NCBI GenBank assembly: GCA_030145385.1
Contig: JAQYVU010000004.1
Span: 1-64,000, forward strand
Length of the DNA stretch: 64,000 bases
DNA from: Desulfococcaceae bacterium
Lineage (GTDB): Bacteria; Desulfobacterota; Desulfobacteria; Desulfobacterales; Desulfosalsimonadaceae
Reading direction: 5' to 3'
A program made the translations under genes and the position numbers. The notes beneath the pieces were generated by a model. That model was not told where the DNA came from and ran no database searches. It was given only the letters and a program-made list of their open reading frames with translations. Within the stretch, counting starts at the first letter, position 1; every line of letters begins with the position of its first letter. Below, one piece after another: positions 29,602 to 46,248 of this stretch.

Positions 29602-30779
29602 TGAAAGCCGGGCAGATGCATCCCAAATACCTGATGATCAGTGTGGATTTTTTTTCAGACATCGGGAACAAATTCATCGGCCTGATCCTTCTGGATCTTC
29701 TCGTGTTTAAAGGCGCGAGCGCATTGTCCAGCCTGGTACTGCTGTGCGTCATTGATCAGCTGCCCTCTGTTCTGTTGAGTCCGTTGGCCGGGATTTACAT
29801 TGACCGGGTGGGGCCGAAAAAATGGCTGATGCTTGTGAACATGAGCAAGTGCGTGCTCGTGGCCGTGATTGCGGCAACCGCATCCCAATGGGCGATTTTT
29901 CCGGTTTATTTCTGCTTTATCGTGGCCTCGCTGTTTTTTTCCATCGGCCAGCTTTCCCTGGTGCCGATGCTGATACCCAAAAACCGCCTGATGGCCTTTA
30001 ACGCGTTAAATGAACGGATTGCCATTGCCGGGGGCATCCTGTCCCCCTGGCTCATCGGCATGATGCTTGAAAAAACCGGCCGCTCAACCGCGCTGGGTCT
30101 AACCTGCCTGATTTTTGCTTTCACGGTTTTGCTGATTGCCGGGTTGCCGAAAATCAATAAAAGCCGGGCTTCTGAAAAGGCCGGACAGATATTAAAGCAA
30201 AAAACCGGCCCCTTTTTTTCCAGGACCCGGGCAGCGTTTAATGGATGTCAGATCAATTATGTTTATTTTTTAATGCTGGGAGTCGTGCTGCTGGGAGGCG
30301 GGGTGCTGAATATCGGTCTGCCTTTTTATTTTAAGACGAACCTGAATGGGGATATTGCCCGGTGGGGATTTATTATGTCTGCATTTCAGGCAGGGGCTTT
30401 TTCTTCCACCCTTTTGCTCCCTTTATGCGAAGCAAAATTAAAACAGCCGGCAATTCCTTCGTTCAGTTTTCTGGTCCTCGGCGGGGCCATGTTTGTCCTT
30501 CCTTATGCGACAGACTACCTTCAGGTGTCGGTGCTGATGTTTTTTCTGGGATGCGGTTTCACCATGCTCCATATTTTCTGGGAAAGCCTGATCCAGCAGT
30601 ACAGTCCGCGCCATATGATCGGCAAAACCATGTCATTGCTGTCTTCCTATAAAGGTCTTTGCTATCTGGGTACGGTGCTAACCGGCGCGATGATCTCCAG
30701 TATCTGGGGGGCGGAATCGTTTTTGATGATCGGATCCCTGGTGGTCGGTGCCGCTTTTTTTATTCCCCAAAAGCAGTAA
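29601..30779 (+). CDS. MFS transporter, probable exporter of the modified peptide
   Basis: A 392-residue protein with about twelve hydrophobic helices and an MFS-type loop 2-3 motif (LAGIYIDRVGPKKWLMLVN). It resembles the MFS_3/enterobactin-exporter-like group. It is translationally coupled to the maturase, which is the main reason to assign it to export of the peptide product from the cytoplasm. It lacks an ABC or peptidase domain, so any leader removal must be done by another protein. Confidence 0.82.
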   Translation: MKAGQMHPKYLMISVDFFSDIGNKFIGLILLDLLVFKGASALSSLVLLCVIDQLPSVLLSPLAGIYIDRVGPKKWLMLVNMSKCVLVAVIAATASQWAIFPVYFCFIVASLFFSIGQLSLVPMLIPKNRLMAFNALNERIAIAGGILSPWLIGMMLEKTGRSTALGLTCLIFAFTVLLIAGLPKINKSRASEKAGQILKQKTGPFFSRTRAAFNGCQINYVYFLMLGVVLLGGGVLNIGLPFYFKTNLNGDIARWGFIMSAFQAGAFSSTLLLPLCEAKLKQPAIPSFSFLVLGGAMFVLPYATDYLQVSVLMFFLGCGFTMLHIFWESLIQQYSPRHMIGKTMSLLSSYKGLCYLGTVLTGAMISSIWGAESFLMIGSLVVGAAFFIPQKQ

Positions 30780-30822
30780 GTACCTCTTTACATCCCATGG
30801 GCTAATCCTCTATTGTCTTTTT

Positions 30823-32574
30823 ATGATTCGCCATAAAAAGAAAAAACTGATTTATAAATTCCTGTCTTTTATTCTTCCGTTTATTATCTCATCGATTCTT
30901 ATCACAAGCGTTATTTTGTCTTTGACAAACTATAATTTTTTTCAAAAAACCATTAATCAGGATTACCGCAATATCATAAAAAGTTCAGCCGGAGAGATCC
31001 AGCTGTTCATGGACAATGCACAGCGCAATCTGGAAAGCCTTGCATTGCTGATGGCATCAATAAAGCTGGATCCGTGGCAGAAAGAAATCGCCCTGACAGC
31101 GTTTTTGCATACCAATTCCCAATTTGTGTCGATCGATCTGTTTTCTGCTCAAGGGGAAAAAATCGTATCCACCATTTCAGAAGACCGGCCGCCAGATAAC
31201 ACTGCCCCGGAAATGTTTGCCAAAGTCCTTTCCGGACAGGTGGCGATTTCCGACGTCATGCTGGCTGAAAACGATATCCCCCATGTACTTGTGGCCGTTC
31301 CGATATTTTCTTTGGGAAAAGTCAACGAAGTCCTGTGGGCGGAATTAAATCTTAAAGCCATCTGGGATGTTCTGGAGGGAATTACGATCGGCGATACCGG
31401 CCAGGTCTATATTATGGATTTATCCGGCCGTTACATTGCCCACAGGGAAATCGACCGGGTGCTTCGAACACCGCCGGCTGAAAAACCGGATATTTTAGAA
31501 GAAATCCGCGGCGCGAAAGTGCCGGTTGAATGGTTTGAGGACAAAGAAGGCAGCACGTCTTACAATCTGGGGGCTTATGTTCCGGGGCTTGACTGGGTTG
31601 TGGTTTTAAGTCAGCCGGGCACGGAAATTTACGCGTATCTGTACCGCAATATCTTATGGGCGGTGCTGGTAACGTTATCAATCTGCATTGTGGCTGTTTT
31701 TTTAGGGTGGAGCTGGATCAGGCGCTTTCTGGTTCCCATTCAGACCCTGCATCGCCAGGTTCAGGTAATCGGCCAGGGAGATCTTGATCAGAAAGTATCC
31801 ATTGAAACGGAAGATGAAATCGGCGATCTGGGCAGTGCGTTTAATGAAATGACGGATTCGCTCAAGGAACACATCGCCCGGGAAGTCGAAAGCGCCCGGG
31901 CTCTGGTGCACACGAAAAATCTGGCGATTCTCGGCACGGCATCGAGCAAGGTGACCCATGAAGTGGGAAATTTTTTAAACAATACCCATATGGCCCTGTC
32001 CGGCCTGAAAAGAGAGGCACTCAGTCAACGAGGTGAAAAAATACTCAAGATTATCGACAATGAATCCGGCCGGGTAAAGGAGTTCATCCAGAAATTTCTG
32101 CAGTTTGCCAAAAAACCCGACCTGCATTTACAAAAAACCCCCCTGGATCTGATCATCAAAGAAATCCTGACAATCGTCGGGCCGGAAGCTGAAAAAAGAG
32201 GGATTGAAATTGCGCTGAACTGGGATGCAAAAATTCCCCTTGTCAACATTGATGCCGGCCTGATGAGCCAGATCATGAACAACCTGGTCAAAAACAGCAT
32301 AGAGGCCATTCCGGGTGACGGGACAATATCAATCAAAGGAATCCTTGAAAATGAAAATCTTGTGATTTCCGTCAAAGATACCGGTGCGGGCATTGACGCT
32401 GAAAACGCAGAAAAGATTTTTGAGCCGTTTTTTACCACAAAAGGGGTTAAGGGGACAGGGCTGGGCATGCCGATCGTGAAAACAAATGTGGAAGCCCACG
32501 GCGGGACCATTGAATGCAGGAGCGCCTTCGGTAAAGGTACCACATTTATTATCCGGTTGCCTATTGACAGCTAA
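30823..32574 (+). CDS. membrane histidine kinase with periplasmic Cache-type sensor
   Basis: A 583-residue sensor kinase. The first membrane helix is at about 15-40 and the periplasmic Cache-like domain at about 45-270 (VLLAENDIPHVLVAVPIFSLG-like region, GDTGQVYIMDLSGRYIAHRE). A second helix sits near 285-305, then HAMP, a phosphoacceptor helix with His in KVTHEVGNFLNN, and an ATPase domain ([43 protein letters not shown]). No receiver domain is present. The ATG at 30823 gives a start just before the membrane helix; a GTG inside the upstream gene is less likely. It is probably the partner of the NtrC regulator at 22988 and may sense the peptide or its metal complex. Confidence 0.82.
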   Translation: MIRHKKKKLIYKFLSFILPFIISSILITSVILSLTNYNFFQKTINQDYRNIIKSSAGEIQLFMDNAQRNLESLALLMASIKLDPWQKEIALTAFLHTNSQFVSIDLFSAQGEKIVSTISEDRPPDNTAPEMFAKVLSGQVAISDVMLAENDIPHVLVAVPIFSLGKVNEVLWAELNLKAIWDVLEGITIGDTGQVYIMDLSGRYIAHREIDRVLRTPPAEKPDILEEIRGAKVPVEWFEDKEGSTSYNLGAYVPGLDWVVVLSQPGTEIYAYLYRNILWAVLVTLSICIVAVFLGWSWIRRFLVPIQTLHRQVQVIGQGDLDQKVSIETEDEIGDLGSAFNEMTDSLKEHIAREVESARALVHTKNLAILGTASSKVTHEVGNFLNNTHMALSGLKREALSQRGEKILKIIDNESGRVKEFIQKFLQFAKKPDLHLQKTPLDLIIKEILTIVGPEAEKRGIEIALNWDAKIPLVNIDAGLMSQIMNNLVKNSIEAIPGDGTISIKGILENENLVISVKDTGAGIDAENAEKIFEPFFTTKGVKGTGLGMPIVKTNVEAHGGTIECRSAFGKGTTFIIRLPIDS

Positions 32575-32590
32575 TTTAATTTGATATAAT
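32564..32590 (+). promoter_or_regulatory. probable promoter of the tRNA-Leu gene
   Basis: TTGACA (32564-32569, overlapping the end of the kinase gene) and TATAAT (32585-32590) are both perfect hexamers with a slightly short 15-base spacer, 24 bases before the tRNA start. Confidence 0.5.
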
Positions 32591-32613
32591 AACGCAATTA
32601 TCAAAAAAATCGT

Positions 32614-32652
32614 GCCGGAGTGGTGGAATTGGTAGACGCAGAGGACTCAAAA
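32614..32652 (+). pseudogene. tRNA-Leu(CAA), 5' half only
   Basis: The sequence starts like a class II tRNA-Leu: acceptor 5' strand GCCGGAG, D-arm with GGTAGACGC and anticodon stem GAGGA with loop CTCAAAA (anticodon CAA). The expected TCCTC of the anticodon 3' stem is replaced by AACGA, and no variable arm, T-arm or 3' acceptor follows. The gene is therefore cut in or just after the anticodon loop, at the junction with the phage-like DNA. Confidence 0.75.
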
Positions 32653-32686
32653 AACGACCAGCACTAAAATCATAAGCACCTAATAG

Positions 32687-32720
32687 CCCTTAACAATCTA
32701 ATTTGTTAGGGGTTTTTTTT
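32687..32720 (+). terminator. rho-independent terminator at the junction
   Basis: CCCTTAACAA pairs with TTGTTAGGGG (one G-T wobble) around a six-base loop, followed by eight T residues. It would stop transcription entering the phage DNA from the tRNA-Leu promoter. Confidence 0.75.
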
Positions 32721-32794
32721 ATTTCTTTATTTTCTTCATATTCTCTATTTTACCCACTTTTCTAAGTTTTCTTTCCCTATTTTGGAACCAAAAG

Positions 32795-32803
32795 TTATCC
32801 ACA
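32795..32803 (+). promoter_or_regulatory. DnaA box (TTATCCACA)
   Basis: A perfect consensus DnaA box in an AT-rich intergenic stretch beside the folded element at 32944. Five further exact copies occur in the phage part of the window. Confidence 0.45.
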
Positions 32804-32813
32804 GTTTAGTAGC

Positions 32814-32841
32814 TTGAATAGCTATAAATATATGATATAAT
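32814..32841 (+). promoter_or_regulatory. phage promoter with extended -10
   Basis: TTGAAT (32814) and TATAAT (32836) with a 16-base spacer and a TG one base before the -10. A second TGATATAAT follows at 32863-32871. It would read through the folded element into the first small genes. Confidence 0.5.
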
Positions 32842-32943
32842 AAAAATACAAGCCTTTATCGGTGATATAATCGAAAAACCAGATATACCCCGCATCTTAC
32901 GTCCTCAAAAATTTTCAGCGTTTCACGCAAAAATATAAATAGT

Positions 32944-33063
32944 GTCCGCATTATGTTGGTATGGGAACTTCGTTCCACCTATCCAACAGCTCCCTCTTTC
33001 GGTTGGCTAATCCTAGCACAACACCAAATAGGGAGCTGTTGGCTACGCCAAACAAATGCGGAC
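32944..33063. ncRNA. strongly folded intergenic element (origin or structured RNA candidate)
   Basis: Outer stem GTCCGCATT (32944-32952) pairs with AATGCGGAC (33055-33063). Inside are a hairpin GGAAC-TTC-GTTCC (32964-32976) and a 13-bp perfect stem CCAACAGCTCCCT (32983-32995) with 33030-33042. GTTGG at 32955-32959 could alternatively pair with CCAAC at 32983-32987, competing with the 13-bp stem. It has no coding potential. It may be a leader RNA, a single-strand origin or a packaging/resolution site. Confidence 0.5.
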
Positions 33064-33077
33064 TAATAAAATAAAAT

Positions 33078-33221
33078 ATGGATTATAGAAAAAACGAAAC
33101 TAATAATATCAACGTCAAGGCTGAAAATAATTATGAAATTGCCTATTTAGATGACGAAAAAGTGTTTGTTTTGGATAGGCATAGCGGAGATTTAAAAATA
33201 TATAAAAATAAAATAAATTAA
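33078..33221 (+). CDS. 47-residue phage protein, unknown
   Basis: A short open frame (MDYRKNETNN...) after the folded element, in tight series with the next gene. The composition is charged, with no motif. There is no Shine-Dalgarno site, as for most neighbours. It is supported by its placement in a same-strand run of small genes. Confidence 0.45.
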   Translation: MDYRKNETNNINVKAENNYEIAYLDDEKVFVLDRHSGDLKIYKNKIN

Positions 33222-33225
33222 TAAT

Positions 33226-33381
33226 ATGAATGATGAAATTAAACATTACCTGCTGATTATAGCTAGCCAAAGCTTAGTTATTTCGGCTATTATTTATGCT
33301 GATTCTTGGGTTTCTAAGATTTTTCTATGTGCGGTCGCCGTTGGATTATTAAAAGAATTTACAATTATAAAAAATAAATAA
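33226..33381 (+). CDS. 51-residue membrane protein, unknown
   Basis: It starts four bases after the previous stop and holds two hydrophobic segments (YLLIIASQSLVISAIIYA and IFLCAVAVGLL). It is a small phage membrane protein of unknown role; inner-membrane modification or superinfection exclusion are possible but unproven. Confidence 0.5.
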   Translation: MNDEIKHYLLIIASQSLVISAIIYADSWVSKIFLCAVAVGLLKEFTIIKNK

Positions 33382-33386
33382 CCCCA

Positions 33387-33457
33387 GGTGGCAGATATTT
33401 TGTGCGTCTTTTATCTCGTTGATGTTTTCACTATAATTTCATCACGCCCACGCCACC
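33387..33457. repeat. nested inverted repeat between small genes
   Basis: GGTGGC (33387-33392) pairs with GCCACC (33452-33457), and TGATG (33420-33424) with CATCA (33440-33444) inside. The spacing is loose, so the fold is uncertain. It fills most of the 98-base gap between two genes. Confidence 0.3.
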
Positions 33458-33479
33458 ACCTAATTGGTAAATAAAATAT

Positions 33480-33653
33480 ATGAAACAATACGAATTACCA
33501 AACAATTCAAAAATTAAGTTACCAGACGGAGAATTTGCTACCTTTCTTAAGATGGATGGAATGTATGCTCAATGGGACTTTGATGGAGAGATGAGGATTG
33601 GAAATTTTATGGAATTTGAAAAAAGAGACGGTTATTACGAAGTAAGTAAATAA
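33480..33653 (+). CDS. 57-residue phage protein, unknown
   Basis: A small beta-rich looking protein (KLPDGEFATFLKMDGMYAQW). It lies six bases before the next gene. No recognisable domain and no ribosome site. Confidence 0.5.
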   Translation: MKQYELPNNSKIKLPDGEFATFLKMDGMYAQWDFDGEMRIGNFMEFEKRDGYYEVSK

Positions 33654-33658
33654 AATAT

Positions 33659-33907
33659 ATGTTTTATTGGGTGAAGTTTGAATGCAATTTTTGTGCTGAA
33701 GTCGGTGGTTATCAAGGATGGTGCTTATGTAGAAAAAGCGTCATTGGAGACCCGACAATTAAAACTGATAAAAATGGTTTTAAGTATACAGATGGAGAAA
33801 TTCAGATGTGGCCAGTATTAGATAAAGACATAATAGACCCTTGGCATTATACAAAATATTATTGGATTTTTGACTTAAGAATTATATCAGAGTTTTTAAA
33901 TAATTAA
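33659..33907 (+). CDS. 82-residue Cys-containing phage protein, unknown
   Basis: It contains four cysteines in two clusters (ECNFCAEV and WCLC), a possible zinc site, in a small acidic and aromatic-rich protein. It is not recognised. The two tRNA genes follow. Confidence 0.5.
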   Translation: MFYWVKFECNFCAEVGGYQGWCLCRKSVIGDPTIKTDKNGFKYTDGEIQMWPVLDKDIIDPWHYTKYYWIFDLRIISEFLNN

Positions 33908-33920
33908 ATAAATCAAAAGG

Positions 33921-33992
33921 CAGGGTGAGCGTAACTGGCAACCTAACAGTCTCCAAAACCGAGTAATGGAGGTTCAATTCCTCCCACCCTGA
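33921..33992 (+). tRNA. tRNA-Trp (CCA), phage-encoded, irregular arms
   Basis: Acceptor CAGGGTG/CACCCTG pairs over 7 bp, and the T-arm is perfect (GGAGG-TTCAATT-CCTCC). The anticodon loop CTCCAAA gives CCA, Trp. The anticodon stem has two mismatches and the D-stem is poor, so it may be decaying or unusual. The 3' CCA is not encoded. Confidence 0.6.
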
Positions 33993-33997
33993 CATAA

Positions 33998-34069
33998 TTC
34001 TCTGTGGTGAAATTGGTATCACGGCTGACTGTTAATCAGCTATTTCTGGTTCGAATCCAGGCGGAGGAG
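33998..34069 (+). tRNA. tRNA-Asn (GTT), phage-encoded
   Basis: Complete cloverleaf: acceptor TTCTCTG/CGGAGGA (with G-T wobbles), D-arm GTGA/TCAC, anticodon arm GCTGA-CTGTTAA-TCAGC, and T-arm closed with loop TTCGAAT. The 3' CCA is not encoded. It starts six bases after the Trp-like tRNA. Confidence 0.85.
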
Positions 34070-34091
34070 CATATATATGTAACATTTCAAT

Positions 34092-34898
34092 ATGAGACAC
34101 AAAGACAATCATCATGACATCCTGAATTTTATTCTTGATTTAGACAACTTAATACAGGTTAAAAACCTTGCCTCTTACAAAGCCAAAAGAGTTGACGGTT
34201 CTTTACTTAGACCAAGAAAAAAATTTGAATTACTGGAAAACGAAGGGTTGATCCGAAAAGTCCCAAATTTAGGCGAGGCTCATTTAACGGCTGAACAATT
34301 GAAAAAGAAGCCTTTAGATGTAAATAACCGCTGGTGGCAGGTAACACGCTTAGGAGCCAGGGAAATAGGCAGAGAAAGCGATTATAAAAGGGTTCGTGAA
34401 GTAAAATCAGTCAGAGATAAAGAACACGAATCCCAAATAAGGGATGTTTGCGTAGCCTTTAAACGGTTATATCCTGATTATAAGTTTGAATTCGACTTAA
34501 ACGCCGAAATTGACGGTGTTAAGCCCGATATAGCTATAAAGATTAGCAACGGAATAGATACCCATCATTTCGTTGTGGAAGTCGAAAGAAAAGACTGGGG
34601 AGTAAGAACTTACCGGGAAACCGTCTTGAAATATGAAAAAGCCAAGCTCAAAGCTAAAGTTTTAATTGTTTACTCCGACAGGGATTTTGATCAAGGACAC
34701 CCACGGCCCCAGTGTTATAGCGACTTTATAGTAGCCCAAAGAAAGGAAATGCTCATGAGGCAGTTTCAATGTCTCTTGAAAGCCTCTAAAGATTTACCAG
34801 GATACCGTTATTTATTTCTCCCTTATCCCGATTATCACCGACTTAATGAAAGAGTTTGGTATCTCCCAAATGGGCATCAAATTAATTTAATCAGTTAA
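34092..34898 (+). CDS. replication-relaxation-like protein (winged helix plus nuclease-like domain)
   Basis: A 268-residue protein resembling the replication-relaxation family of mobile elements. The N-terminal part (about 1-100) looks like a winged helix (FELLENEGLIRKVPNLGEAHLT, WWQVTRLGAREIGRE). The C-terminal part has a PD-(D/E)XK-like core: DGVKPDIAIKI, then HHFVVEVERKDW with an acidic pair and Lys. Such proteins bind origin DNA or replication partners in plasmids and integrative elements. A second protein of similar plan is encoded at 42218. It follows the tRNA genes and has no Shine-Dalgarno site. Confidence 0.6.
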   Translation: MRHKDNHHDILNFILDLDNLIQVKNLASYKAKRVDGSLLRPRKKFELLENEGLIRKVPNLGEAHLTAEQLKKKPLDVNNRWWQVTRLGAREIGRESDYKRVREVKSVRDKEHESQIRDVCVAFKRLYPDYKFEFDLNAEIDGVKPDIAIKISNGIDTHHFVVEVERKDWGVRTYRETVLKYEKAKLKAKVLIVYSDRDFDQGHPRPQCYSDFIVAQRKEMLMRQFQCLLKASKDLPGYRYLFLPYPDYHRLNERVWYLPNGHQINLIS

Positions 34899-34955
34899 TT
34901 TACACTTCTTTGTTTGCGGTTCTTTAACAACAACCATAAACGATGGAGGTGTAAA

Positions 34956-35681
34956 ATGAGTAATTTATTGCTTCACTGCGGCGGACAGTCCGCTACCCTT
35001 GAAGACCTTGATTTAATCCCTTTACCCGAAGCTACTGAAAGCTACCAGCCAGTATCCCACCATGACCTTGCAGTATCCCTCAAAACAATTGGACAGGACA
35101 TTTTAACTGATTACACGTTAATTGGTGAAAATTACGGATTAGCCCGGAATGGTAACCAGATGTTTGCCGTTCTCAAATTCAAAAATGACAATACTGAAAT
35201 GGCAATGTGTATCGGCTTCCGGAATTCTTATGACCGTTCGATGTCAATTGGTATGGCACTGGGGGCATCGGTATTTGTGTGCGATAATCTCGCTCTTAAC
35301 GGTGATATCGCTGTTATGAAGAAGCACACCAAGAAAGTGATGACTTCTCTTGAAGACTTGGCTATTTCCACTCTTTACCGCTCCCAACGTAATTTTCATT
35401 CTATTCTTGAGGATGCTGGAAAGATGAAGCATGTCGGATTTACCGATAACAGGGCTTATGAGCTTATTGGCTTGTTATTTGGTAATGGTATCCTTTCCCC
35501 CCGGCAATTGCCTGTTGTCCGTGATAATTGGCTTAAGCCTGATCATGAAGCATTTCAACCCCGTAACGCCTGGAGTTTTTACAACGCTTGCACAGAAGCT
35601 CTTAAAAGCTCTCCCCCAATGCAGGTAATGGAAAGACATTGCAAACTCCATGAAACTTTAACGGGGGTGATCGATGTTTAA
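34956..35681 (+). CDS. DUF932 phage/plasmid-like protein
   Basis: A 241-residue member of the DUF932 (TIGR03299-like) family found on phages and plasmids, of unknown biochemical role: QPVSHHDLAVSLKTIGQDIL, MFAVLKFKN, NSYDRSMSIGMALGASVFVCDNL. I start at the ATG at 34956, which has a clear GGAGGTG site; an upstream ATG at 34914 is less likely. The gene and the three after it have strong ribosome sites and higher GC than neighbours, suggesting a separately acquired cassette. Confidence 0.75.
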   Translation: MSNLLLHCGGQSATLEDLDLIPLPEATESYQPVSHHDLAVSLKTIGQDILTDYTLIGENYGLARNGNQMFAVLKFKNDNTEMAMCIGFRNSYDRSMSIGMALGASVFVCDNLALNGDIAVMKKHTKKVMTSLEDLAISTLYRSQRNFHSILEDAGKMKHVGFTDNRAYELIGLLFGNGILSPRQLPVVRDNWLKPDHEAFQPRNAWSFYNACTEALKSSPPMQVMERHCKLHETLTGVIDV

Positions 35682-35868
35682 AGAAGATGAGGGCAAGGAG
35701 ATACTTACAACGGAGGATTTACAAGTCCTTTTAGTTGGTAATCGTTTTAAGCTTGATTGTAATCACTACGCCACCCCCGGGCATAACTTCGCCAACACGA
35801 TTGTTATTATATCTTTAGGGGGAGGTAAAATAAAAACCCAGTGTTCGGAATGTTATCAGGGCTATTAA
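35674..35868 (+). CDS. 64-residue protein, unknown
   Basis: It overlaps the end of the DUF932 gene by eight bases and uses a GGGGGTGAT ribosome site inside it. A late CSEC pair and an earlier Cys-His (LDCNHYA) could bind metal. Unknown function; probably part of the same cassette. Confidence 0.6.
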   Translation: MFKEDEGKEILTTEDLQVLLVGNRFKLDCNHYATPGHNFANTIVIISLGGGKIKTQCSECYQGY

Positions 35869-35897
35869 TCTGCTTAGGTTAAGAAGAGGGAGGAGAA

Positions 35898-36068
35898 ATG
35901 TATTCACCGAAAATTAAGGAGGATCTTATCCCTATTCTTTACAGGATAGGCAAGGCAGAGGGCAAAACAATGACGAAAATCGTTGATGAGCTTTTGAGGA
36001 AACAACTGACAAGGAGGAAACGAAATGTCATTAAAACAAATCGGCAGTCTTTGGAAAAAGACAGGTAA
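35898..36068 (+). CDS. 56-residue putative ribbon-helix-helix protein
   Basis: GGGAGGAG precedes the start. The pattern YRIGKAEGKTMTKIVDELLRKQL looks like a CopG/Arc-type ribbon-helix-helix segment followed by a basic tail. It overlaps the next gene by 44 bases in another frame. It may be a small repressor of the cassette. Confidence 0.5.
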   Translation: MYSPKIKEDLIPILYRIGKAEGKTMTKIVDELLRKQLTRRKRNVIKTNRQSLEKDR

Positions 36069-36207
36069 AAGAGGCGATTACCTTGCAGGTGAAATTGATT
36101 TAGGGCTTATGGGCAAGGTAAAAGTCGCTATCTTCCCAAACGAGCTTGATGAGGCAGATAAGGAAAAGAACAAGCCAAACGCTTCAATCGTGCTTTTCGA
36201 GGAATAG
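36025..36207 (+). CDS. 60-residue DUF736-like protein
   Basis: The layout IGSLWKKTGKRGDYLAGEID...GKVKVAIFPNE...ASIVLFEE resembles small beta-barrel DUF736-type proteins of mobile elements. AAGGAGG lies eight bases before the ATG. Function unknown. It ends in a terminator preceded by a DnaA box. Confidence 0.55.
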   Translation: MSLKQIGSLWKKTGKRGDYLAGEIDLGLMGKVKVAIFPNELDEADKEKNKPNASIVLFEE

Positions 36208-36216
36208 TTATCCACA
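36208..36216 (+). promoter_or_regulatory. DnaA box (TTATCCACA)
   Basis: A perfect consensus copy directly after the stop codon of the DUF736-like gene and before the terminator. Confidence 0.35.
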
Positions 36217-36222
36217 ACCAAC

Positions 36223-36262
36223 AAAGGGATTTTGCTTTTGAATTAGCAAATCCCTTTTTTTC
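36223..36262 (+). terminator. rho-independent terminator
   Basis: AAAGGGATTTTGC and GCAAATCCCTTT form a stem with one bulged T around a ten-base loop, followed by T residues. It closes the DUF932 cassette. Confidence 0.75.
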
Positions 36263-36290
36263 TTGCATAAAACCCAATAAATACAGGGTA

Positions 36291-36318
36291 TTGCAATATT
36301 ATACAGTTATGCTATAAT
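36291..36318 (+). promoter_or_regulatory. promoter TTGCAA-N16-TATAAT with extended -10
   Basis: TTGCAA at 36291 and TGCTATAAT ending at 36318 are well spaced. It starts the next run of small genes (from 36352). Confidence 0.6.
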
Positions 36319-36351
36319 AATAACAGATATAACAAATTAAATTAAACACTT

Positions 36352-36558
36352 ATGAAAAAAAATATTTATCCAGACGGGATAGAAACAATACTTGTTGAAA
36401 GAGATATAGAATGCCCAATGTGTGGTAAAGACCTTATTAAAGGAGATGTATTATATAAAGATAATTACAGAGGAGAAACATTTTGTGCTTATTGTTGTGA
36501 TGAATACGAAGAAACTATAATTTTAGAGGAGGGAGAGTTTGGAGAAAAATTAAAATAA
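36352..36558 (+). CDS. 68-residue zinc-ribbon protein, unknown
   Basis: Cys pairs CPMCGK and FCAYCCDE suggest one treble-clef or ribbon zinc site, followed by an acidic tail. First gene after the promoter at 36291; leader of about 25 bases without a ribosome site. Confidence 0.55.
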   Translation: MKKNIYPDGIETILVERDIECPMCGKDLIKGDVLYKDNYRGETFCAYCCDEYEETIILEEGEFGEKLK

Positions 36559-36574
36559 CTAAATATATAAATTT

Positions 36575-36880
36575 ATGAAAAAATTATTCATCATCGATTA
36601 TTTTTACGGAGGCGATAACAATTTTGACTGGTATTGGGCTGAAAACGAAAAAGAAGCGTGGGAATGTTTGTATGAAGCCCACGAAATAAATAAAGGTGAG
36701 ATAGACCCTTATCAATTCAGTATAGTGGATACTTATCAAGTCTTTGAAGCATTAGAGAAAGACGATGTTAAATACTTCATTGATCGGTTATGGGATATGG
36801 CGGAAGCACACCCAAAATATCACTCAAGCGATTTTATACTTGAGTTAAGTGATTGGTATAAAAAATTATTTGATAAATAA
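36575..36880 (+). CDS. 101-residue phage protein, unknown
   Basis: An acidic, Trp- and Tyr-rich protein (FDWYWAENEKEAWECLYEAHE) without a recognised domain. It is two bases upstream of the next gene. Confidence 0.5.
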   Translation: MKKLFIIDYFYGGDNNFDWYWAENEKEAWECLYEAHEINKGEIDPYQFSIVDTYQVFEALEKDDVKYFIDRLWDMAEAHPKYHSSDFILELSDWYKKLFDK

Positions 36881-36881
36881 T

Positions 36882-37079
36882 ATGAAATTTAAAAGATTAA
36901 TTATTTGGATAAAGCATTATTTAAATAGCAGGTGTTGGCATGATTTTGAGGTGTATGGTTGGTGGAATAGGTTTAATAATTTTGGTCATCCATATAAAAT
37001 GGTTCAGTTTAAATGTAAAAAATGCGGATGTTTTAAAATTGAGAGCTATCCCAATAATATTAATATAGAAAATTTATGA
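36882..37079 (+). CDS. 65-residue Cys-pair protein, unknown
   Basis: A short basic protein with a single FKCKKCGCFK knuckle near the C-terminus. I start at 36882; an in-frame ATG at 36849 would overlap the previous gene. It overlaps the next gene by four bases (ATGA). Confidence 0.5.
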   Translation: MKFKRLIIWIKHYLNSRCWHDFEVYGWWNRFNNFGHPYKMVQFKCKKCGCFKIESYPNNINIENL

Positions 37080-37357
37080 AGGAAATAAAAGGAGTGTGTT
37101 TTTCTTTAAATGAAATTTTAGCTCATAGTCATATTGATGAATTTTCAGAAGTAAAAAATCCAATAGATAAGATTTCCAGAATAATGGCTAAATTTTTAAC
37201 TGAAAGACATCATTATCCAGAATATAGTAGAAAAAAGTTTTTTGAAGAAATTGACAGAAGAATAAAACCGAAAATAGATTTTAAAAATTATAAAATATTA
37301 AAATGCGATATTGATAAGTTAAACAATAAAGTATTTATCAAATTTGTAATAAGTTAA
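37076..37357 (+). CDS. 93-residue phage protein, unknown
   Basis: A Lys- and Ile-rich soluble protein with no recognised motif. Its start overlaps the stop of the preceding gene, which supports translation. Confidence 0.5.
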   Translation: MKEIKGVCFSLNEILAHSHIDEFSEVKNPIDKISRIMAKFLTERHHYPEYSRKKFFEEIDRRIKPKIDFKNYKILKCDIDKLNNKVFIKFVIS

Positions 37358-37365
37358 TAAAACAT

Positions 37366-37494
37366 ATGGATAAAGAACAATTAAGATGTGAACTTTGTGG
37401 TCTCTACTTCGAAAAAGACCAACAAGAATTAGATTATAATAATATTGATGAAACTGGCAGGTGCGTTGATTGCTACGCTCCGCTGGTAAAATAA
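37366..37494 (+). CDS. 42-residue zinc-knuckle protein, unknown
   Basis: Two CxxC pairs (RCELCG and GRCVDCY) at suitable spacing indicate a single zinc site. It is packed between neighbours with gaps of eight and four bases. Confidence 0.5.
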   Translation: MDKEQLRCELCGLYFEKDQQELDYNNIDETGRCVDCYAPLVK

Positions 37495-37498
37495 ACTT

Positions 37499-37963
37499 AT
37501 GAGACCAATAAAATTTAGAGCTTGGGATAGAATAAAGAAAGTAATGTTTAGTGTTTATTCAATTACATATTTAAACGGTGGAGTAATAATAAGTGCTCCT
37601 GGTCATTTTATCGCAGATGATGAGTCGGAAGTATGGGTTGAATTAAAAAACGATAACAACAATGAAATCAAAGCAGATTTAATGCAATACACAGGGCTTA
37701 AAGACAAAAACGGAAAAGAGATTTATGAGGGGGATATTGTTAGAATACATAAATTTACGCAAGAACTCGGAGAAAATATGGGAGTTATTGAGGGGGAAAA
37801 AGAATTTTTGGCAAAAATAGAATTTTCAATGTATGGAGGAATTTATTTAAATTCTAGAGAAAATGATAGTTGCCCACTTTGGGAATATGAAAATGGATTT
37901 CACGAAGAATCTATAGAAGTAATAGGAAACATACACGAAAACCCTGAATTATTAAATAATTAA
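37499..37963 (+). CDS. YopX-family phage protein
   Basis: A 154-residue protein with the YopX hallmarks: start RPIKFRAWDRIKKVMF, then LMQYTGLKDKNGKEIYEGDIV and the ending EVIGNIHENPELL. YopX proteins are common on phages of Gram-positive and other bacteria. The role is unknown; the fold contains an SH3-like barrel. Confidence 0.8.
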   Translation: MRPIKFRAWDRIKKVMFSVYSITYLNGGVIISAPGHFIADDESEVWVELKNDNNNEIKADLMQYTGLKDKNGKEIYEGDIVRIHKFTQELGENMGVIEGEKEFLAKIEFSMYGGIYLNSRENDSCPLWEYENGFHEESIEVIGNIHENPELLNN

Positions 37964-37969
37964 AAACTT

Positions 37970-38203
37970 ATGATCAAAGTAAAAGAAACAACAACCATAA
38001 TCCATAAAAAGGATTTGGACAAATTATCTCGTAAAGCAGGGCTTTCATTAAGGCAGTTAAGCAAAAAAGCAGGTATCAATTATATTTACCTTATTAACTG
38101 CAACAACGGTAAGGGCTACTTATCCACAGATAAATGGAATGATATTAAAAAAGTTTTAGAAACTTATCCACAGATAAGCGAAAATAGGCTAATATTAGAG
38201 TAA
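37970..38203 (+). CDS. 77-residue HTH protein
   Basis: The segment DKLSRKAGLSLRQLSKKAGINYIYLINC fits a Cro/XRE-like helix-turn-helix. It might be a small repressor. Two exact DnaA boxes, 44 bases apart, lie within its 3' half and overlap the codons. Confidence 0.55.
   Translation: MIKVKETTTIIHKKDLDKLSRKAGLSLRQLSKKAGINYIYLINCNNGKGYLSTDKWNDIKKVLETYPQISENRLILE
38120..38172 (+). promoter_or_regulatory. pair of DnaA boxes
   Basis: TTATCCACA occurs exactly at 38120-38128 and 38164-38172, each followed by GATAA. This is the only close pair in the window and lies just before a promoter at 38214. Confidence 0.45.
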
Positions 38204-38213
38204 TTTCAGTGGG

Positions 38214-38241
38214 TTGATTTATTGTGGTGTTATGCTATTAT
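38214..38241 (+). promoter_or_regulatory. promoter TTGATT-N16-TATTAT with extended -10
   Basis: TTGATT at 38214 and TGCTATTAT ending at 38241, followed by AAGTA as at several other phage promoters. It starts the block that includes the SSB-tail protein. Confidence 0.5.
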
Positions 38242-38270
38242 ATAAGTATAAGTAATTAAACAAAACACCT

Positions 38271-38507
38271 ATGGAAAAACCATCACTCAATCAAATCTCA
38301 TCTTTAATTGAAATTCTGCAAGCCAACGAAAACATCAGCAAACACTTCATCTTAGAATTTGATGACATGTGGGATAAGCTTATAGAAATATCCCTTAAGC
38401 AATACAGATATATTCTTTATCTGCTCTGCAATAGAAAATATGCCAAATTAAATCAAGTATTAACTAATCTTAATTTCAAACAATATGAAAATTCAAGAAT
38501 TAATTAA
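38271..38507 (+). CDS. 78-residue phage protein, unknown
   Basis: A helical protein (QISSLIEILQANENISKHFIL) lying 30 bases after the promoter's -10. It is not recognised and overlaps the next gene by 23 bases. Confidence 0.5.
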   Translation: MEKPSLNQISSLIEILQANENISKHFILEFDDMWDKLIEISLKQYRYILYLLCNRKYAKLNQVLTNLNFKQYENSRIN

Positions 38508-38664
38508 ACAAGAAGAAGCAACAAGGTTTGATGAAAAAAGAGGAATAGTTGGGAAAGTGGTTGAGTGGGAAGAAACAGACCTTTCAAAAAACTTTTGGGA
38601 GTTTATCCTTGGACAAAAGAGAGTTGAACAGCCAAAAGTGGAGAGAGTTAATATATTAAAATAA
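38485..38664 (+). CDS. 59-residue phage protein, unknown
   Basis: A short charged protein (MKIQELIKQEEATRFDEKRG) overlapping the end of the previous gene in another frame. No motif. Support comes from its full open frame in the compact gene run. Confidence 0.4.
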   Translation: MKIQELIKQEEATRFDEKRGIVGKVVEWEETDLSKNFWEFILGQKRVEQPKVERVNILK

Positions 38665-38697
38665 TAATTAATAAGCGAAATATCGCTAACAAAAATT

Positions 38698-39327
38698 ATG
38701 TTAAATGAAAATTTAGTAATCGAAAAAAAGGAGGGAAAAACTTATCCACCTTTACCAAAGGATATTTACCAAGCTGAATTGTTGGACATTACAAGTGAAG
38801 AAAGACCAACATACGACACAAGGAACAAACCAGAGACCGAACAAGAAAAAGAAACTGTCTTGAGTTTTCAATTCACTTTGCTTGACGGTATGGATGGCGA
38901 GGAAAAGTTAAGAGGTCGTAATGTATGGGCTAACTTTGTTCCAACATTCCTTTATATCGGCAAGAACGGAAAAAATAATCTCTATCGGATCATAGAAGCG
39001 TTAATCGGTCGAGAATTAACTCAAGAGGAAGAGGTTAAAGGTATAACTGGCAAGCGGTTGAACACGTTAATCAATAAACAGTGCCGAATTTCAGTAGAGC
39101 CTAAGCAAAAAAATGACAAAACTTATGATGTAATAACTGACTGGCTTAAAGCAAATGGAGACTTGGATTCATTAACAGATGAAGAAAGGGAAAACGCAAG
39201 AGTTAAAAAAGATGACGAGAAAGAAGAATCAGAAGAATATAGCCAGCCAGTAAATGAAGAACAGCAACCGCCTGTATCAGAGCCACCAGCTGAACAAGAA
39301 GTCGATGTAAGCAACATACCATTTTAA
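38698..39327 (+). CDS. putative ssDNA-binding-like protein with SSB-type C-terminal tip
   Basis: A 209-residue protein. The N-terminal 135 residues look like a single beta-barrel domain (TYPPLPKDIYQAELLDI, GRNVWANFVPTFL, GKRLNTLINKQCRISVEPK), similar in style to phage DUF669-type proteins. A disordered acidic Gln/Pro-rich tail follows and ends DVSNIPF. The final hydrophobic IPF after acidic residues mimics the DDDIPF tip of bacterial SSB, which recruits replication and repair enzymes. It is therefore probably a ssDNA- or replication-associated protein. Confidence 0.55.
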   Translation: MLNENLVIEKKEGKTYPPLPKDIYQAELLDITSEERPTYDTRNKPETEQEKETVLSFQFTLLDGMDGEEKLRGRNVWANFVPTFLYIGKNGKNNLYRIIEALIGRELTQEEEVKGITGKRLNTLINKQCRISVEPKQKNDKTYDVITDWLKANGDLDSLTDEERENARVKKDDEKEESEEYSQPVNEEQQPPVSEPPAEQEVDVSNIPF

Positions 39328-39386
39328 AATTTAATCGGGAGGTGTGAGCTTGCTTTTCGGGGGCAGGCTCCCCTCCTATTAATCAA

Positions 39387-39740
39387 ATGTTTCAATTACA
39401 AGCCGTCTTAGACGGAGTAAAAACTCTCAAAAACAATACCTTAAAAATCACCTTAGAAACTCAAGATATTTCATCTTTTTCTTCCGAAGAATTAGCCGAG
39501 CTTTTTAAACTGAATGACAAGCTGATCTGGGCAGTATTTAAAGAAACTCCAGTAAAGGCAGAAGATATAAAAATAGAGGAAGTCAAAGAGTTTAAGACAG
39601 ATAAAAGCCCCTCTCAAAGGCTTAGGGCAAGTCTATATGTTTTATGGGAGCAGTCCGGAAAGCCAGGGGATTTTCAAACAGAATATTACCCTAAGCAGAT
39701 GAATAAATTAATAGATTTTATAAAAGAGAAGTTAAATTAA
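39387..39740 (+). CDS. 117-residue phage protein, unknown
   Basis: The first half looks beta-rich (FQLQAVLDGVKTLKNNTLKI). The second contains helices (SPSQRLRASLYVLWEQSGKP, YYPKQMNKLIDFIKEKL). It resembles small phage proteins encoded beside ssDNA-binding proteins, but I cannot name it. Confidence 0.5.
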   Translation: MFQLQAVLDGVKTLKNNTLKITLETQDISSFSSEELAELFKLNDKLIWAVFKETPVKAEDIKIEEVKEFKTDKSPSQRLRASLYVLWEQSGKPGDFQTEYYPKQMNKLIDFIKEKLN

Positions 39741-39799
39741 TCAATAGCCACACAGGAGAATAATTCTCAGGCTTATTCTCTAGAGGTTGTTTATTAAAG

Positions 39800-39956
39800 A
39801 GTTATATAGAGTAAATGATGCTCTTACAGGCTTCTATGCTAGTCCAATTTATTGTAAGATAAATAAATCTATCGCTTGGTTCGTAGCCAAGAGAAGTGTG
39901 TGGGCGACACCCAAGCTTTATGGTGCGGGGGATAGGTAGCATATCTCTATATAACT
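39800..39956 (+). ncRNA. candidate structured RNA in a 260-base gap
   Basis: AGTTATATAGAG (39800-39811) pairs perfectly with CTCTATATAACT (39945-39956). Inside lie CTTGG/CCAAG (39875-39891) and GTGT/ACAC (39898-39910), with a GC-rich tract. The gap has no open frame. TCTCTAT near 39944 could instead pair with ATAGAGA downstream, giving a competing fold. Confidence 0.35.
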
Positions 39957-40000
39957 TTCTAGTAAATAACCATAGAGATTATTAATTAAATATAAGATAT

Positions 40001-40294
40001 ATGAAAACATTTGAAGAGAGATTTGATGAGAAGTTTGAAACAAAAGAAATAATCACTACTCAAAAAAATATTATTGAAGTAGCAATTAAAAAAGATAAAA
40101 GGTCAAGCACAAGAGATAGTGTTAAAAATATTAAAAAATTCTTCAAAGAAGAAATAAAGAGAATTACAGATGAGATGATAGGGGAAGAACAGAAAACAAC
40201 TATTATAAGGGGAGATTTACACGGAATATATCCAATGGGCTACAACAATCACAGACAACACTGCATAGACACTATAAATAAATATTTAAAATAA
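40001..40294 (+). CDS. 97-residue basic phage protein, unknown
   Basis: A Lys- and Glu-rich helical protein (MKTFEERFDEKFETKEIITT) with no recognised domain, four bases upstream of the 3D-domain gene. Confidence 0.45.
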   Translation: MKTFEERFDEKFETKEIITTQKNIIEVAIKKDKRSSTRDSVKNIKKFFKEEIKRITDEMIGEEQKTTIIRGDLHGIYPMGYNNHRQHCIDTINKYLK

Positions 40295-40298
40295 AAAT

Positions 40299-40820
40299 AT
40301 GAAAAACAAAAAAAGAAACAAAACATACGCTGGTAAACTGACAAAATATCAGCGAAAAAAAGAAGTCCTTAAGATTAAACTATCAATCTTAATGGCCATA
40401 TCTATTGTCTCCGCCTGTGCGATTATGGGCAATTCAATAATGCCTGAATCATCATTTGTAGAAATCAGCTATAAAGCTCAAAAGGATTTACCGGTTGCAG
40501 AAGATAAAGCAGAACTAATTGACGTAAATAACGGAACAATCCGGGAAATCACGATGTTTAACAGTTTGCCGGAACAAACAGATGACACGCCTTGTATATC
40601 GGCAGACGGAACGAATATTTGTGAAGTTGATTACAATGTGTGTGCAACAAACGCTTTCCCTTTTGGGACAAAGCTTTATGTGGATGGATTGGGCGAATGT
40701 ATTGTTAAAGATCGAATGAATACAAGATATAGAAATGCCGTTGATTTTTATGCTGGTATGGATGTTGAAAGGGCAAAAAAATTTGGGAGGCAGAATTTAT
40801 TAGTAAGTGTTTTAAATTAA
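40299..40820 (+). CDS. 3D-domain (RlpA-like beta-barrel) cell-wall protein
   Basis: A 173-residue protein with a basic N-terminus, one membrane anchor (LSILMAISIVSACAIMGNSI, about 29-48) and a C-terminal 3D/double-psi barrel: EITMFNSLPEQTDDTP, CATNAFPFGTKLYV, CIVKDRMNTRYRNAVDFY. Such domains act on peptidoglycan. The 3' end looks recombinant: a second, diverged copy of its last 24 codons lies beyond the HNH gene at 41443-41517. Confidence 0.7.
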   Translation: MKNKKRNKTYAGKLTKYQRKKEVLKIKLSILMAISIVSACAIMGNSIMPESSFVEISYKAQKDLPVAEDKAELIDVNNGTIREITMFNSLPEQTDDTPCISADGTNICEVDYNVCATNAFPFGTKLYVDGLGECIVKDRMNTRYRNAVDFYAGMDVERAKKFGRQNLLVSVLN

Positions 40821-41444
40821 ATGCACATAAAAAAATGCAGGAGTTGTGGAAAAACTTTTGAAACTAAGAAAAATTATCAAATTTATTGCTCTGAAAGTTG
40901 TTATTACGAAAGTCTAAAAGGGAAAAAAAGAAGTTGGATAAAATTAAAGTGTGAAAAGTGTGGAAAAACTTTTGAGGTAATGAAACATTTAAAATATAGA
41001 AAATATTGCAGTAAAGAATGTTCATATTCAATGCCAACAAGAAAACCAACGTATGGAAGATGTAAAAAATGTGGGAAAAAATTTAAAAAGGATCGTTTGA
41101 AAAGAAAATATTGTTCAATGGAATGCAAGAATAAATTTTTTAAAGGGAAAAATCATCCAAGTTGGAATGGTGGATTATCTTCAAAATATGATAGGTTAAT
41201 GCAAACAAAGAATTGGAAGAAGTGGAGAATCGGTGTTTTTGAAAGAGATAATTATACTTGCCAACATTGTGGTTTTAGGAGTGGTAATGGTGAACATAGG
41301 GATTTACACGCTCACCACATTAAAAGTGCAAATAAGTATCCGAAATTAGTTTTCGTATTAACAAACGGAATTACATTATGTAATAAATGTCACGGAAGAG
41401 TGCATTCTATAAACTTCAAAAATAAGGTTTATAGGTATAATTGA
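40821..41444 (+). CDS. HNH endonuclease with zinc ribbons (free-standing homing-type)
   Basis: A 207-residue protein. Three zinc-binding repeats (CRSCGKTF, CEKCGKTF, CKKCGKKF, each with a later CSxxC pair) lead to an HNH domain: NYTCQHCG, LHAHHIKSANKYP and NGITLCNKCHGRVH. It begins immediately after the 3D gene stop and ends on the remnant of that gene's tail, as expected for an inserted homing endonuclease. Confidence 0.85.
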   Translation: MHIKKCRSCGKTFETKKNYQIYCSESCYYESLKGKKRSWIKLKCEKCGKTFEVMKHLKYRKYCSKECSYSMPTRKPTYGRCKKCGKKFKKDRLKRKYCSMECKNKFFKGKNHPSWNGGLSSKYDRLMQTKNWKKWRIGVFERDNYTCQHCGFRSGNGEHRDLHAHHIKSANKYPKLVFVLTNGITLCNKCHGRVHSINFKNKVYRYN

Positions 41445-41517
41445 TTGGTATGCCGGAATGGACAAAGACCGGGCGGTAAACTTCGGATTACAAAGATTAT
41501 TAGTAACTAATATATAA
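41443..41517 (+). pseudogene. remnant 3' end of a 3D-domain gene
   Basis: Reading frame DWYAGMDKDRAVNFGLQRLL aligns with DFYAGMDVERAKKFGRQNLL at the end of the 3D protein. There is no start codon or upstream part. It is probably the original end of the gene before the HNH gene inserted. Confidence 0.65.
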
Positions 41518-41519
41518 AT

Positions 41520-41825
41520 ATGACCAAAGAAGAATTATTAAAACAAAATGCGAAGTTGCAACAAGAAGTTGAATTATGGGAAGAAAAAACAAAAAGATTA
41601 AGAGCGGAGTTTGCGAAAGCATTTAACTGGTATGAGTCAAAAAAGCAATTTGATTATGGTGATAGAAAATTAAAGAGTCCAAGTTGGGAGGAGATTTTTG
41701 TAGAGGTTGGTAAGTTATTATCTGCAAGGACATTTTATGATTTAGAGGGGAACGTTTCAGAAAATAAATGTGCGATAGGTGATTTAAGGAGGCTGATTGA
41801 GGAGATTGAAGTAAATAATAATTAA
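41520..41825 (+). CDS. 101-residue coiled-coil protein, unknown
   Basis: The N-terminal third is a coiled coil (LLKQNAKLQQEVELWEEKTK), then a charged region. It starts three bases after the remnant's stop. Confidence 0.45.
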   Translation: MTKEELLKQNAKLQQEVELWEEKTKRLRAEFAKAFNWYESKKQFDYGDRKLKSPSWEEIFVEVGKLLSARTFYDLEGNVSENKCAIGDLRRLIEEIEVNNN

Positions 41826-41829
41826 ATAT

Positions 41830-42144
41830 ATGATCGGTGAAGTGATAAAAGTTCATAAGCCAAAGAAAGGCAGAAAAGGGAATGTTTATGTGAGAGTAGA
41901 ATTTAAGTTGGAAAATGGGAATTGGGCAAAGACTGATGTTTGTCCTGGATTCAGAAATTATAATAGAATGTGGAAACGATTAATTGGATGGGGTGATGAC
42001 TTGATTGGATATAAACTGGATGGTTTGAAATTAAAAAACGAATTTACAGTTGATGCGGATAGTGATATAAGCATTGTCCCAGAAAAGAATATTAACCCGA
42101 TTGAAACCCCAAACCCAAAAACAAGGCTTTGCAAAAGACCATAA
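41830..42144 (+). CDS. 104-residue phage protein, possibly an OB-fold-like barrel
   Basis: The pattern IGEVIKVHKPKKGRKGNVYV, WAKTDVCPGFRNY, LIGYKLDGLKLKNEF suggests a small nucleic-acid-type beta barrel, but there is no firm family match. The C-terminal tail is basic. Confidence 0.4.
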   Translation: MIGEVIKVHKPKKGRKGNVYVRVEFKLENGNWAKTDVCPGFRNYNRMWKRLIGWGDDLIGYKLDGLKLKNEFTVDADSDISIVPEKNINPIETPNPKTRLCKRP

Positions 42145-42217
42145 ACGAAAATAAAAAATAAGGAGTGTTAATAGTCTAAGCAGCAGCCTTGATAAAAGCC
42201 TTTTATATACGCCTGTA

Positions 42218-42877
42218 ATGATTGATAAGCTGATAACTGATGCCAGAACAGAGAATCGAATAATTGAAGGGCTTTATATCCTGTCTTTGGTTAAATACGC
42301 CACTGTAAAACAGCTCAAAACCTGTAAGAAATTATCCCTACCAACTCATATCTTTACCAAGCCTTTTTTACAGATCCTTGAAACAGAGGATTTGTGTGTA
42401 AAAAACGGTGAAGCATACAGTCCCACTCCTAAGACCAAGGAATTATTAAGACAATTCGGCAAACCCACTAAGCACCTGATGAAACGCCAACGGGGTGAGT
42501 TTAAAGAACACCAGGAAAAACTTACAGAGACCATTTTAAATTTTACAAACGATAAAGATTTTTTTACAGTATTTTATCCTGTATTTAAAACATCTTATGG
42601 AGAACTGAGACCAGATGCTTGTCTGGTCTTTTATAACGGTGCTTACAAGATTCAATTCTTAGAAGTTGAGGTCAGTGAAAAAGAAAAAGCTTATCTGCAT
42701 CGCAAAAAACAGAAATATGATGAGATAGCTTCAAAATATGAAACTTATGACGGCTGGTGGAGGAAATGGGCAAAAGTTTTTGAATTGCCGTTTCCAAGTG
42801 AAGAAGAATTCAAATTTACAGTTATGGTGGTCGGAGAAAAAACAGACTTCGGAAAGGGGTGGATATGGCGAGTATAA
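42218..42877 (+). CDS. winged-helix plus PD-(D/E)XK-like protein, first gene of the ATPase operon
   Basis: A 219-residue protein. The N-terminal winged-helix-like part (LYILSLVKYATVKQLKTCKK, ILETEDLCVKNGEAYS) is followed by a nuclease-like core: LRPDACLVFYNGAYKIQFLE continuing into VEVSEKEKAYLHRKKQKYDE, with D, E-x-E and Lys in suitable order. The same plan is seen in the replication-relaxation-like protein at 34092. It overlaps the next gene by 19 bases. Confidence 0.5.
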   Translation: MIDKLITDARTENRIIEGLYILSLVKYATVKQLKTCKKLSLPTHIFTKPFLQILETEDLCVKNGEAYSPTPKTKELLRQFGKPTKHLMKRQRGEFKEHQEKLTETILNFTNDKDFFTVFYPVFKTSYGELRPDACLVFYNGAYKIQFLEVEVSEKEKAYLHRKKQKYDEIASKYETYDGWWRKWAKVFELPFPSEEEFKFTVMVVGEKTDFGKGWIWRV

Positions 42878-45105: not shown

Positions 45106-45108
45106 CCG

Positions 45109-45117
45109 TGGTATAAT
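45109..45117 (+). promoter_or_regulatory. extended -10 promoter TGGTATAAT
   Basis: TGGTATAAT just after the ATPase stop codon, with no clear -35. It would start the structured RNA that ends at the terminator at 45321. Confidence 0.5.
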
Positions 45118-45123
45118 AGAAGT

Positions 45124-45355: not shown

Positions 45356-45364
45356 ATCCCCTTG

Positions 45365-45373
45365 TGGTATAAT
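45365..45373 (+). promoter_or_regulatory. extended -10 promoter TGGTATAAT
   Basis: TGGTATAAT, then AAGTA, 36 bases upstream of the primase-like gene. Confidence 0.5.
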
Positions 45374-45409
45374 ATAAGTATCTAAGAACATTAAAAAAAG
45401 GAGGGTAAA

Positions 45410-46195: not shown

Positions 46196-46201
46196 GCCTA
46201 T

Positions 46202-46246: not shown

Positions 46247-46248
46247 TT

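Follow-up and report, generated by a model that had tools for sequence, protein, structure and literature searches.

A prophage of a Desulfococcaceae bacterium that very probably brings the 5' half of the tRNA-Leu(CAA) gene at which it is integrated

The broken tRNA gene at the left junction

The window that we have analysed, 64,000 nucleotides in all, is the beginning of a contig (C83) of 113,985 bp, which belongs to a draft genome of 5.24 Mb in 209 contigs. It corresponds to C83:1-64000, so that the same numbering is valid for both. The host belongs to an order which, judging by its named relatives, we take to be Desulfobacterales. Near the middle of the window the chromosome ends in one half of a tRNA gene and phage DNA begins. 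The features found at this end are the following:

30748..32574, + strand: sensor histidine kinase gene of the host left flank, with dCache, HAMP and HATPase domains (Pfam PF02743, PF00672, PF02518)
32564..32590, + strand: native tRNA-Leu promoter (TTGACA, 15 nt, TATAAT; 12/12 consensus letters), which now stands only before a dead 5' fragment
32612..32652, + strand: very probable attL, a 41-bp repeat with the host-born 5' half of tRNA-Leu(CAA); exact copy at C83:72804-72844
32685..32714, + strand: terminator-like hairpin in the phage arm, 33 bp past the junction, with 12 pairs and then a T run

The 5' half of the tRNA occupies positions 32614-32652. Base 1 of the tRNA is at 32614, and position 32652 is the final one in the anticodon loop (CTCAAAA). 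The sequence past 32652 is unrelated to a tRNA, and ARAGORN reports no tRNA-Leu in the 64-kb window. An earlier note on this DNA had described a tRNA intact up to about 32652 with no continuation, followed by a change to AT-rich sequence, and it was accurate on both counts: in windows of 2 kb the G+C content is 46-49% across 28-33 kb and 30-41% to the right of there. The promoter match has an unusual spacer of 15 nt and comes from a permissive scan without shuffle control. In the case of the hairpin, one was observed against 0.3 expected from shuffles. Other repeats are also present near the left end of the prophage: an imperfect 31-nt inverted repeat at 32969-33056 (77% complementary, 26 nt between the arms) and two repeats which contain TGATATAAT, at 32833 and 32863.

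The rebuilt tRNA gene at the right end

When the region 32580-32720 was searched against the draft genome, the segment 32612-32652 was found to recur once, 100% identical and far beyond chance, at C83:72804-72844. There it is part of an intact tRNA gene, which begins 8.8 kb past the right edge of the window. At this end we have found:

C83:70986-71201, - strand: excisionase-like HTH gene (PF12728, E 5.7e-9; phrog_66, E 6.3e-6)
C83:71776-72738, + strand: tyrosine integrase gene (PF00589, E 5.5e-14; phrog_1, E 4.9e-32)
C83:72804-72844: very probable attR, exact 41-bp direct repeat of attL
C83:72806-72892, + strand: rebuilt intact tRNA-Leu(CAA) (ARAGORN)

The integrase gene stops 67 bp upstream of the rebuilt tRNA. 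Residues R202, K225, H276, R279, H302 and Y311 of the integrase are invariant among four kin and are presumably those with catalytic roles. The G+C content is back to 45-50% some 2 kb to the right of the tRNA.

These features change the picture given by the left end. The earlier note had seen no integrase or excisionase, which is correct for the 31 kb of phage DNA shown; both genes lie just outside the window, so their absence is an effect of framing. It had also proposed to look to the right of the window for the 3' half of the tRNA and an integrase, and both are found there. Its statement that the tRNA is not rebuilt must be withdrawn, and its suggestion that the tRNA is dispensable is unsupported, given the intact copy at the other end. 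In the draft genome there are 41 tRNA matches (150 of 276 first-look candidates were scored). Nine of them have class-II length: leucine CAA, TAA, CAG, GAG and TAG, one each among those identified, and four serine. Since a single one is CAA, the rebuilt gene is the only copy of tRNA-Leu(CAA) found in the draft.

The prophage

Between the two repeats lies the DNA of a tailed phage:

C83:32653-72844: prophage of 40,192 bp with direct repeats at both ends; the part in the window is 32653..64000, + strand
33921..33992, + strand: phage tRNA-like gene, Trp-like (CCA in the anticodon place, by eye; Rfam RF00005, 34.2 bits)
33998..34070, + strand: phage tRNA-Asn(GTT) (ARAGORN; Rfam, 56 bits)
47045..47467, + strand: terminase small subunit (phrog_4102, E 7.4e-18)
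47464..48954, + strand: terminase large subunit (phrog_38, E 1.7e-56)
51580..52470, + strand: major head protein (phrog_1328, E 5.3e-96)

A primase-like protein is also encoded between the repeats. The comparison with PHROGs covered 18 of the prophage proteins encoded in the window. The Trp-like gene is divergent, with several mismatched pairs; it ends five bases before the phage tRNA-Asn and ARAGORN reports none at its position. At E 1e-30 the major head protein is present in one of 242 genomes of the order, its own, and the junction is found in one of 36 genomes of the family, again its own. A pattern for attP, as expected in an excised circle, had no matches in viral contigs. A prophage-like region at tRNA-Phe in Desulfobacteraceae bacterium SURF_4 (L095-L098, on G699:C11) has several proteins in common with this prophage, with 24-66% identity; it is a distant relative which docks in the usual direction.

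The unbroken locus in the same genus and a probable second element

The tRNA-Leu locus could be aligned in seven of ten genomes of the same genus which we searched. In one of them, G005, the segment 30778-32652 of the window has a counterpart with 79.8% identity over 1,922 aligned positions, which leads directly into an uninterrupted tRNA-Leu(CAA). In six of the seven aligned genomes the intact tRNA is preceded by TTGACA and a TATAAT-like hexamer, just as attL is; in G007 the hexamer is TATAAA. The alignment of the locus shows that this native promoter is replaced at attR. Another genome, G002, has a different sequence upstream of tRNA-Leu and was considered as a second reversed case. It was rejected: the integrase profile found nothing in the 22 relative loci scanned, while it detected all three known integrase loci used as positive control.

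On the 3' side of the rebuilt tRNA we have found:

C83:72893-73887 (L006:8893-9887): second element with genes for a ParE-type toxin and a Phd-type antitoxin, period 1,053 bp
C83:73888-73945: displaced distal 3' half of the tRNA

There are therefore two 3' halves at this end, each with a different flank. When the flank after the distal half is compared with the flank in G005 the score is 97, against 30 for the best of 200 shuffles. The flank which follows the rebuilt tRNA hardly matches, with 34 against a best shuffle of 33. In G005 the contig with the kinase gene and the contig with the distal-type flank have an exact overlap of 119 bp at the tRNA, so kinase and flank form one locus there. 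The distal copy is thus probably the native 3' half, because its flank matches a flank which is linked to the kinase in G005. On the other hand, G002, G004, G007 and G009 have flanks similar to the one after the rebuilt tRNA (scores 72, 59, 59 and 42), and three of these four genomes keep the native promoter: both types of flank circulate in the genus. The opposite order, with a native flank behind the rebuilt tRNA and a later arrival of the distal copy, is also conceivable.

A similar arrangement is found in G004, where a stretch of 246 bp which spans the end of the second element and a second 3' half is 89% identical. The insertions behind tRNA-Leu(CAA) differ in size: the period is 1.05 kb in our genome and about 3 kb in G004 (L089:1485-4605). 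Their 89%-identical end holds the direct repeat AAATTGTGCC, which is present twice in the insertion of our genome. No integrase gene was seen in C83:72893-73887 or in the G004 insertion, and both may be non-autonomous elements moved by an integrase acting in trans. It seems probable that an earlier element carrying ParE and Phd entered the same anticodon loop from the 3' side. The working tRNA gene may then be built from the halves of two mobile elements, with the native halves stranded 41 kb apart. In a limited search of the literature we noticed no case in which two elements, one from each side, had rebuilt a tRNA.

Direction of docking in related integrases

Phages which dock at tRNA genes usually bring the 3' half of the tRNA, so that the rebuilt gene keeps its native promoter. 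We searched for relatives of the integrase in 395 genomes of the phylum, of which 26 gave a match, and in 389 genomes of the order, of which 45 did, our own genome being included in each. We compared 59 loci, our own and 58 others, some of which hardly differ from one another; the comparison covers those matches for which a locus was given. A search of 389 genomes of the class at E 1e-30 gave loci in 37 of them, mostly the same places, and these are left out of the count of orientations. A tRNA is found at most 250 bp past the integrase stop in 45 of the 59 loci: it is convergent in all 44 relatives and codirectional in our locus alone. The remaining 14 loci have no adjacent tRNA; in two of them, L039 and L057, tRNAs stand before the integrase. 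Reversed docking has a single instance in the data compared here. The earlier note had offered an unusual site as one possibility. The site itself, the anticodon loop of a tRNA, is an ordinary one; it is the direction of docking which is unusual.

A quick tree of 54 rows of at least 250 aa, with SH-aLRT support only, places our integrase in a supported group with the convergent L058 (tRNA-Phe), L059 (tRNA-Arg) and L060 (tRNA-Lys), and with L061 and L062, which have no tRNA. A set with a single exception can only give one change of orientation; the contribution of the tree is to show that the closest kin are convergent. A further relative from Ignavibacteria, L113, is also convergent. The spacing between integrase and tRNA is 67 bp in our locus and 67 to 78 bp in L058, L059 and L060.

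Convergence alone does not prove which half of the tRNA is carried, so we checked the far ends of the L058 and L060 elements. In L058, whose integrase is 52% identical to ours, the displaced 3' fragment at the far end starts with the very first base of the anticodon loop; that of L060, whose integrase is 40-41% identical, starts one base before the loop. The far end of L059 was not found within the 20 kb fetched. The 5' fragment of our prophage, which ends at the last base of the loop, is the mirror image of these displaced 3' fragments, and such fragment ends point to a crossover in the anticodon loop.

With the single integrase protein as query no relative was found in genome and viral contigs; an alignment of four integrases detected four and one loci, respectively. 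Among named phages there are weak matches in 40 records, all from Staphylococcus, with about 25% identity in the 30 matches listed. The motif CGTAGCC is present near the integrase stop in our locus, in L112 and in L113, and is possibly an arm site. L112 (Ignavibacteriae contig PNBM01000007.1) has, about 100 bp after its integrase, which is a relative of ours, a sequence which by eye looks like the 3' half of a tRNA. ARAGORN finds no intact tRNA in this 3.9-kb locus: it is either the attP of a free phage or a tRNA which has not been rebuilt.

Interpretation and alternative explanations

We consider it almost certain that the junction in the window is the attL of an integrated temperate tailed phage, which has docked in the reverse direction, its attP bringing the 5' half of the tRNA. 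The segment 32612-32652 is recognized as attL because it has an exact repeat, because the second copy is part of an intact tRNA-Leu(CAA), and because an integrase gene stands beside that copy. The whole arrangement is that of a prophage at a tRNA gene: part of the tRNA is repeated at both ends, one end has an intact tRNA, a tyrosine integrase with its conserved residues lies inside near one end, genes for packaging and head proteins are found between the repeats, and the site is unbroken in relatives. It is also that of an element which carries the 5' half, since a displaced 5' half lies upstream of the intact tRNA and element DNA, instead of the native promoter, precedes the rebuilt gene.

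The process is very probably as follows. The neighbouring tyrosine integrase, which we infer to have carried out the integration, would recombine attP and attB within the seven bases that form the anticodon loop in the host tRNA-Leu(CAA), where the sequences place the likely crossover. The phage attP holds the 5' half of the tRNA on the integrase side. At the left end the 5' half of the host and its promoter are left as a dead fragment; at the right end the phage-borne 5' half is joined to the resident 3' half and gives a whole tRNA. Excision would presumably reverse these steps.

The earlier note had also considered a chimeric contig, in which the assembler has joined the chromosome and a free phage through their common 41-bp tRNA half. 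A crossover of the assembler at such a repeat is conceivable in a draft of 209 contigs. However, it is contradicted by the exact repeats at both ends, by the position of the integrase next to the rebuilt tRNA, and by a genome of the same genus in which the locus is unbroken. Furthermore, both junctions lie within one contig of 113,985 bp and the G+C content rises again to 45-50% beyond the rebuilt tRNA; the flank of the distal 3' half matches one which in G005 is joined to the same kinase gene, and both sides are thus parts of a single locus. We would also expect a mixture of free phage and empty site to break the assembly graph at the repeat. A chimera is thus highly improbable. An even smaller probability, practically negligible, corresponds to tRNA-dependent lysogeny, in which the host tRNA is destroyed and its function is taken over by a phage copy of the same isotype. 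Taken by itself, the left junction looks unrepaired, and the phage does have tRNA genes, but these are only Asn and Trp-like, and ARAGORN detects no further tRNA-Leu in the window and in C83:64001-84000. The shared core measures 41 bp instead of about 10, and attR holds a rebuilt tRNA.

A third alternative concerns the origin of the phage arm: the phage might once have held a whole tRNA-Leu with attP inside it, so that the arm past the loop would be a decayed 3' half. The letters CCAGC and GCACC can be loosely aligned with such a half. Nevertheless shuffled sequences score as high as the arm itself in 406 and 241 cases out of 500 when 33 nt are compared, and in 63 and 59 out of 500 when 68 nt are compared, including the terminator; no related phages with a better preserved 3' half in the arm were found. 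We consider this origin very unlikely, if somewhat less so than a chimera.

Transcription of the rebuilt tRNA

In reversed docking the phage supplies the 5' half; the dead fragment thus keeps the native promoter, and phage DNA lies upstream of the rebuilt gene. A scan which covers one type of promoter found no sigma-70-like site of at least 9/12 before the rebuilt tRNA, which is surprising if expression of the tRNA is required. Nor did we find a terminator-like site from the integrase to the tRNA, so that read-through from the integrase gene is possible. We infer that the rebuilt tRNA would be transcribed from phage DNA, either from a promoter which we do not recognize or by such read-through. 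If it lacks a promoter, a gene for a host tRNA would have come under phage transcriptional control. At the other end, a transcript which starts at the native promoter would be stopped by the hairpin at 32685-32714, about 107 nt on.

A bolder proposal, which we regard as rather unlikely, combines these elements. The host tRNA-Leu(CAA) gene would be wholly replaced, its 5' half by the phage and its 3' half by the second element, and would be transcribed by read-through from the integrase gene; the native promoter would produce a short hybrid RNA of tRNA half and phage sequence, ended by the phage terminator. If the read-through is true, the supply of tRNA-Leu(CAA) in the lysogen would be tied to phage control.

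Comparison with known systems

In the accessible part of the Islander report, 159 of 3,919 islands have a 5' tDNA fragment (PMC4383910). Another paper, as far as its available text goes, considers recombination with the 5' region of tRNA genes considerably less frequent and cites Zhao and Williams 2002 (PMC6563490). In the sections available on pTN3-like archaeal integrases, attB is in the 5' half of the tRNA and the rebuilt tRNA is reported to be expressed from the integrase promoter, an arrangement which is seldom met in bacteria (PMC8371274). To judge from these excerpts, reversed docking is already known, though uncommon, and this prophage is a new and well-delimited case. The suspicion of an assembly error is removed: a tRNA which appears to be unrepaired can be one end of a reversed docking.

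The islands with 5' fragments, as the Islander excerpt presents them, are similar to our prophage: the 5' fragment is displaced upstream, the intact tRNA is downstream and the element supplies the 5' half. They differ in that here we have a tailed-phage prophage, its nearest integrase kin dock in the usual way and the tRNA probably also carries an element on its 3' side. The pTN3-like integrases, in the sections cited, have in common with our case an attB in the 5' half of the tRNA; their genes are described as split by integration, whereas here the integrase is one open frame beside the core. In tRNA-dependent lysogeny of actinobacteriophages a cognate phage tRNA takes the place of the host tRNA, which is not rebuilt; the site of phage Gaia is at tRNA-Leu-CAA (PMC10865867, in its accessible part). 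Phage-encoded tRNAs and integration at a tRNA gene are common features; the rebuilding of the tRNA makes the difference.

The conventional anticodon-loop prophages at tRNA-Phe in SURF_4 (G699) and at tRNA-Lys in G672 belong to the same integrase clade, have about 100-117 bp from the integrase stop to the anticodon loop, and leave a far fragment which starts at the loop or one base before it. They carry the 3' half, unlike our prophage, and the upstream side of the host stays on the rebuilt tRNA. The prophage of G699 and our own, with integrases which are 52% identical and dock in opposite directions on the tRNA, offer a natural comparison for a change of target polarity.
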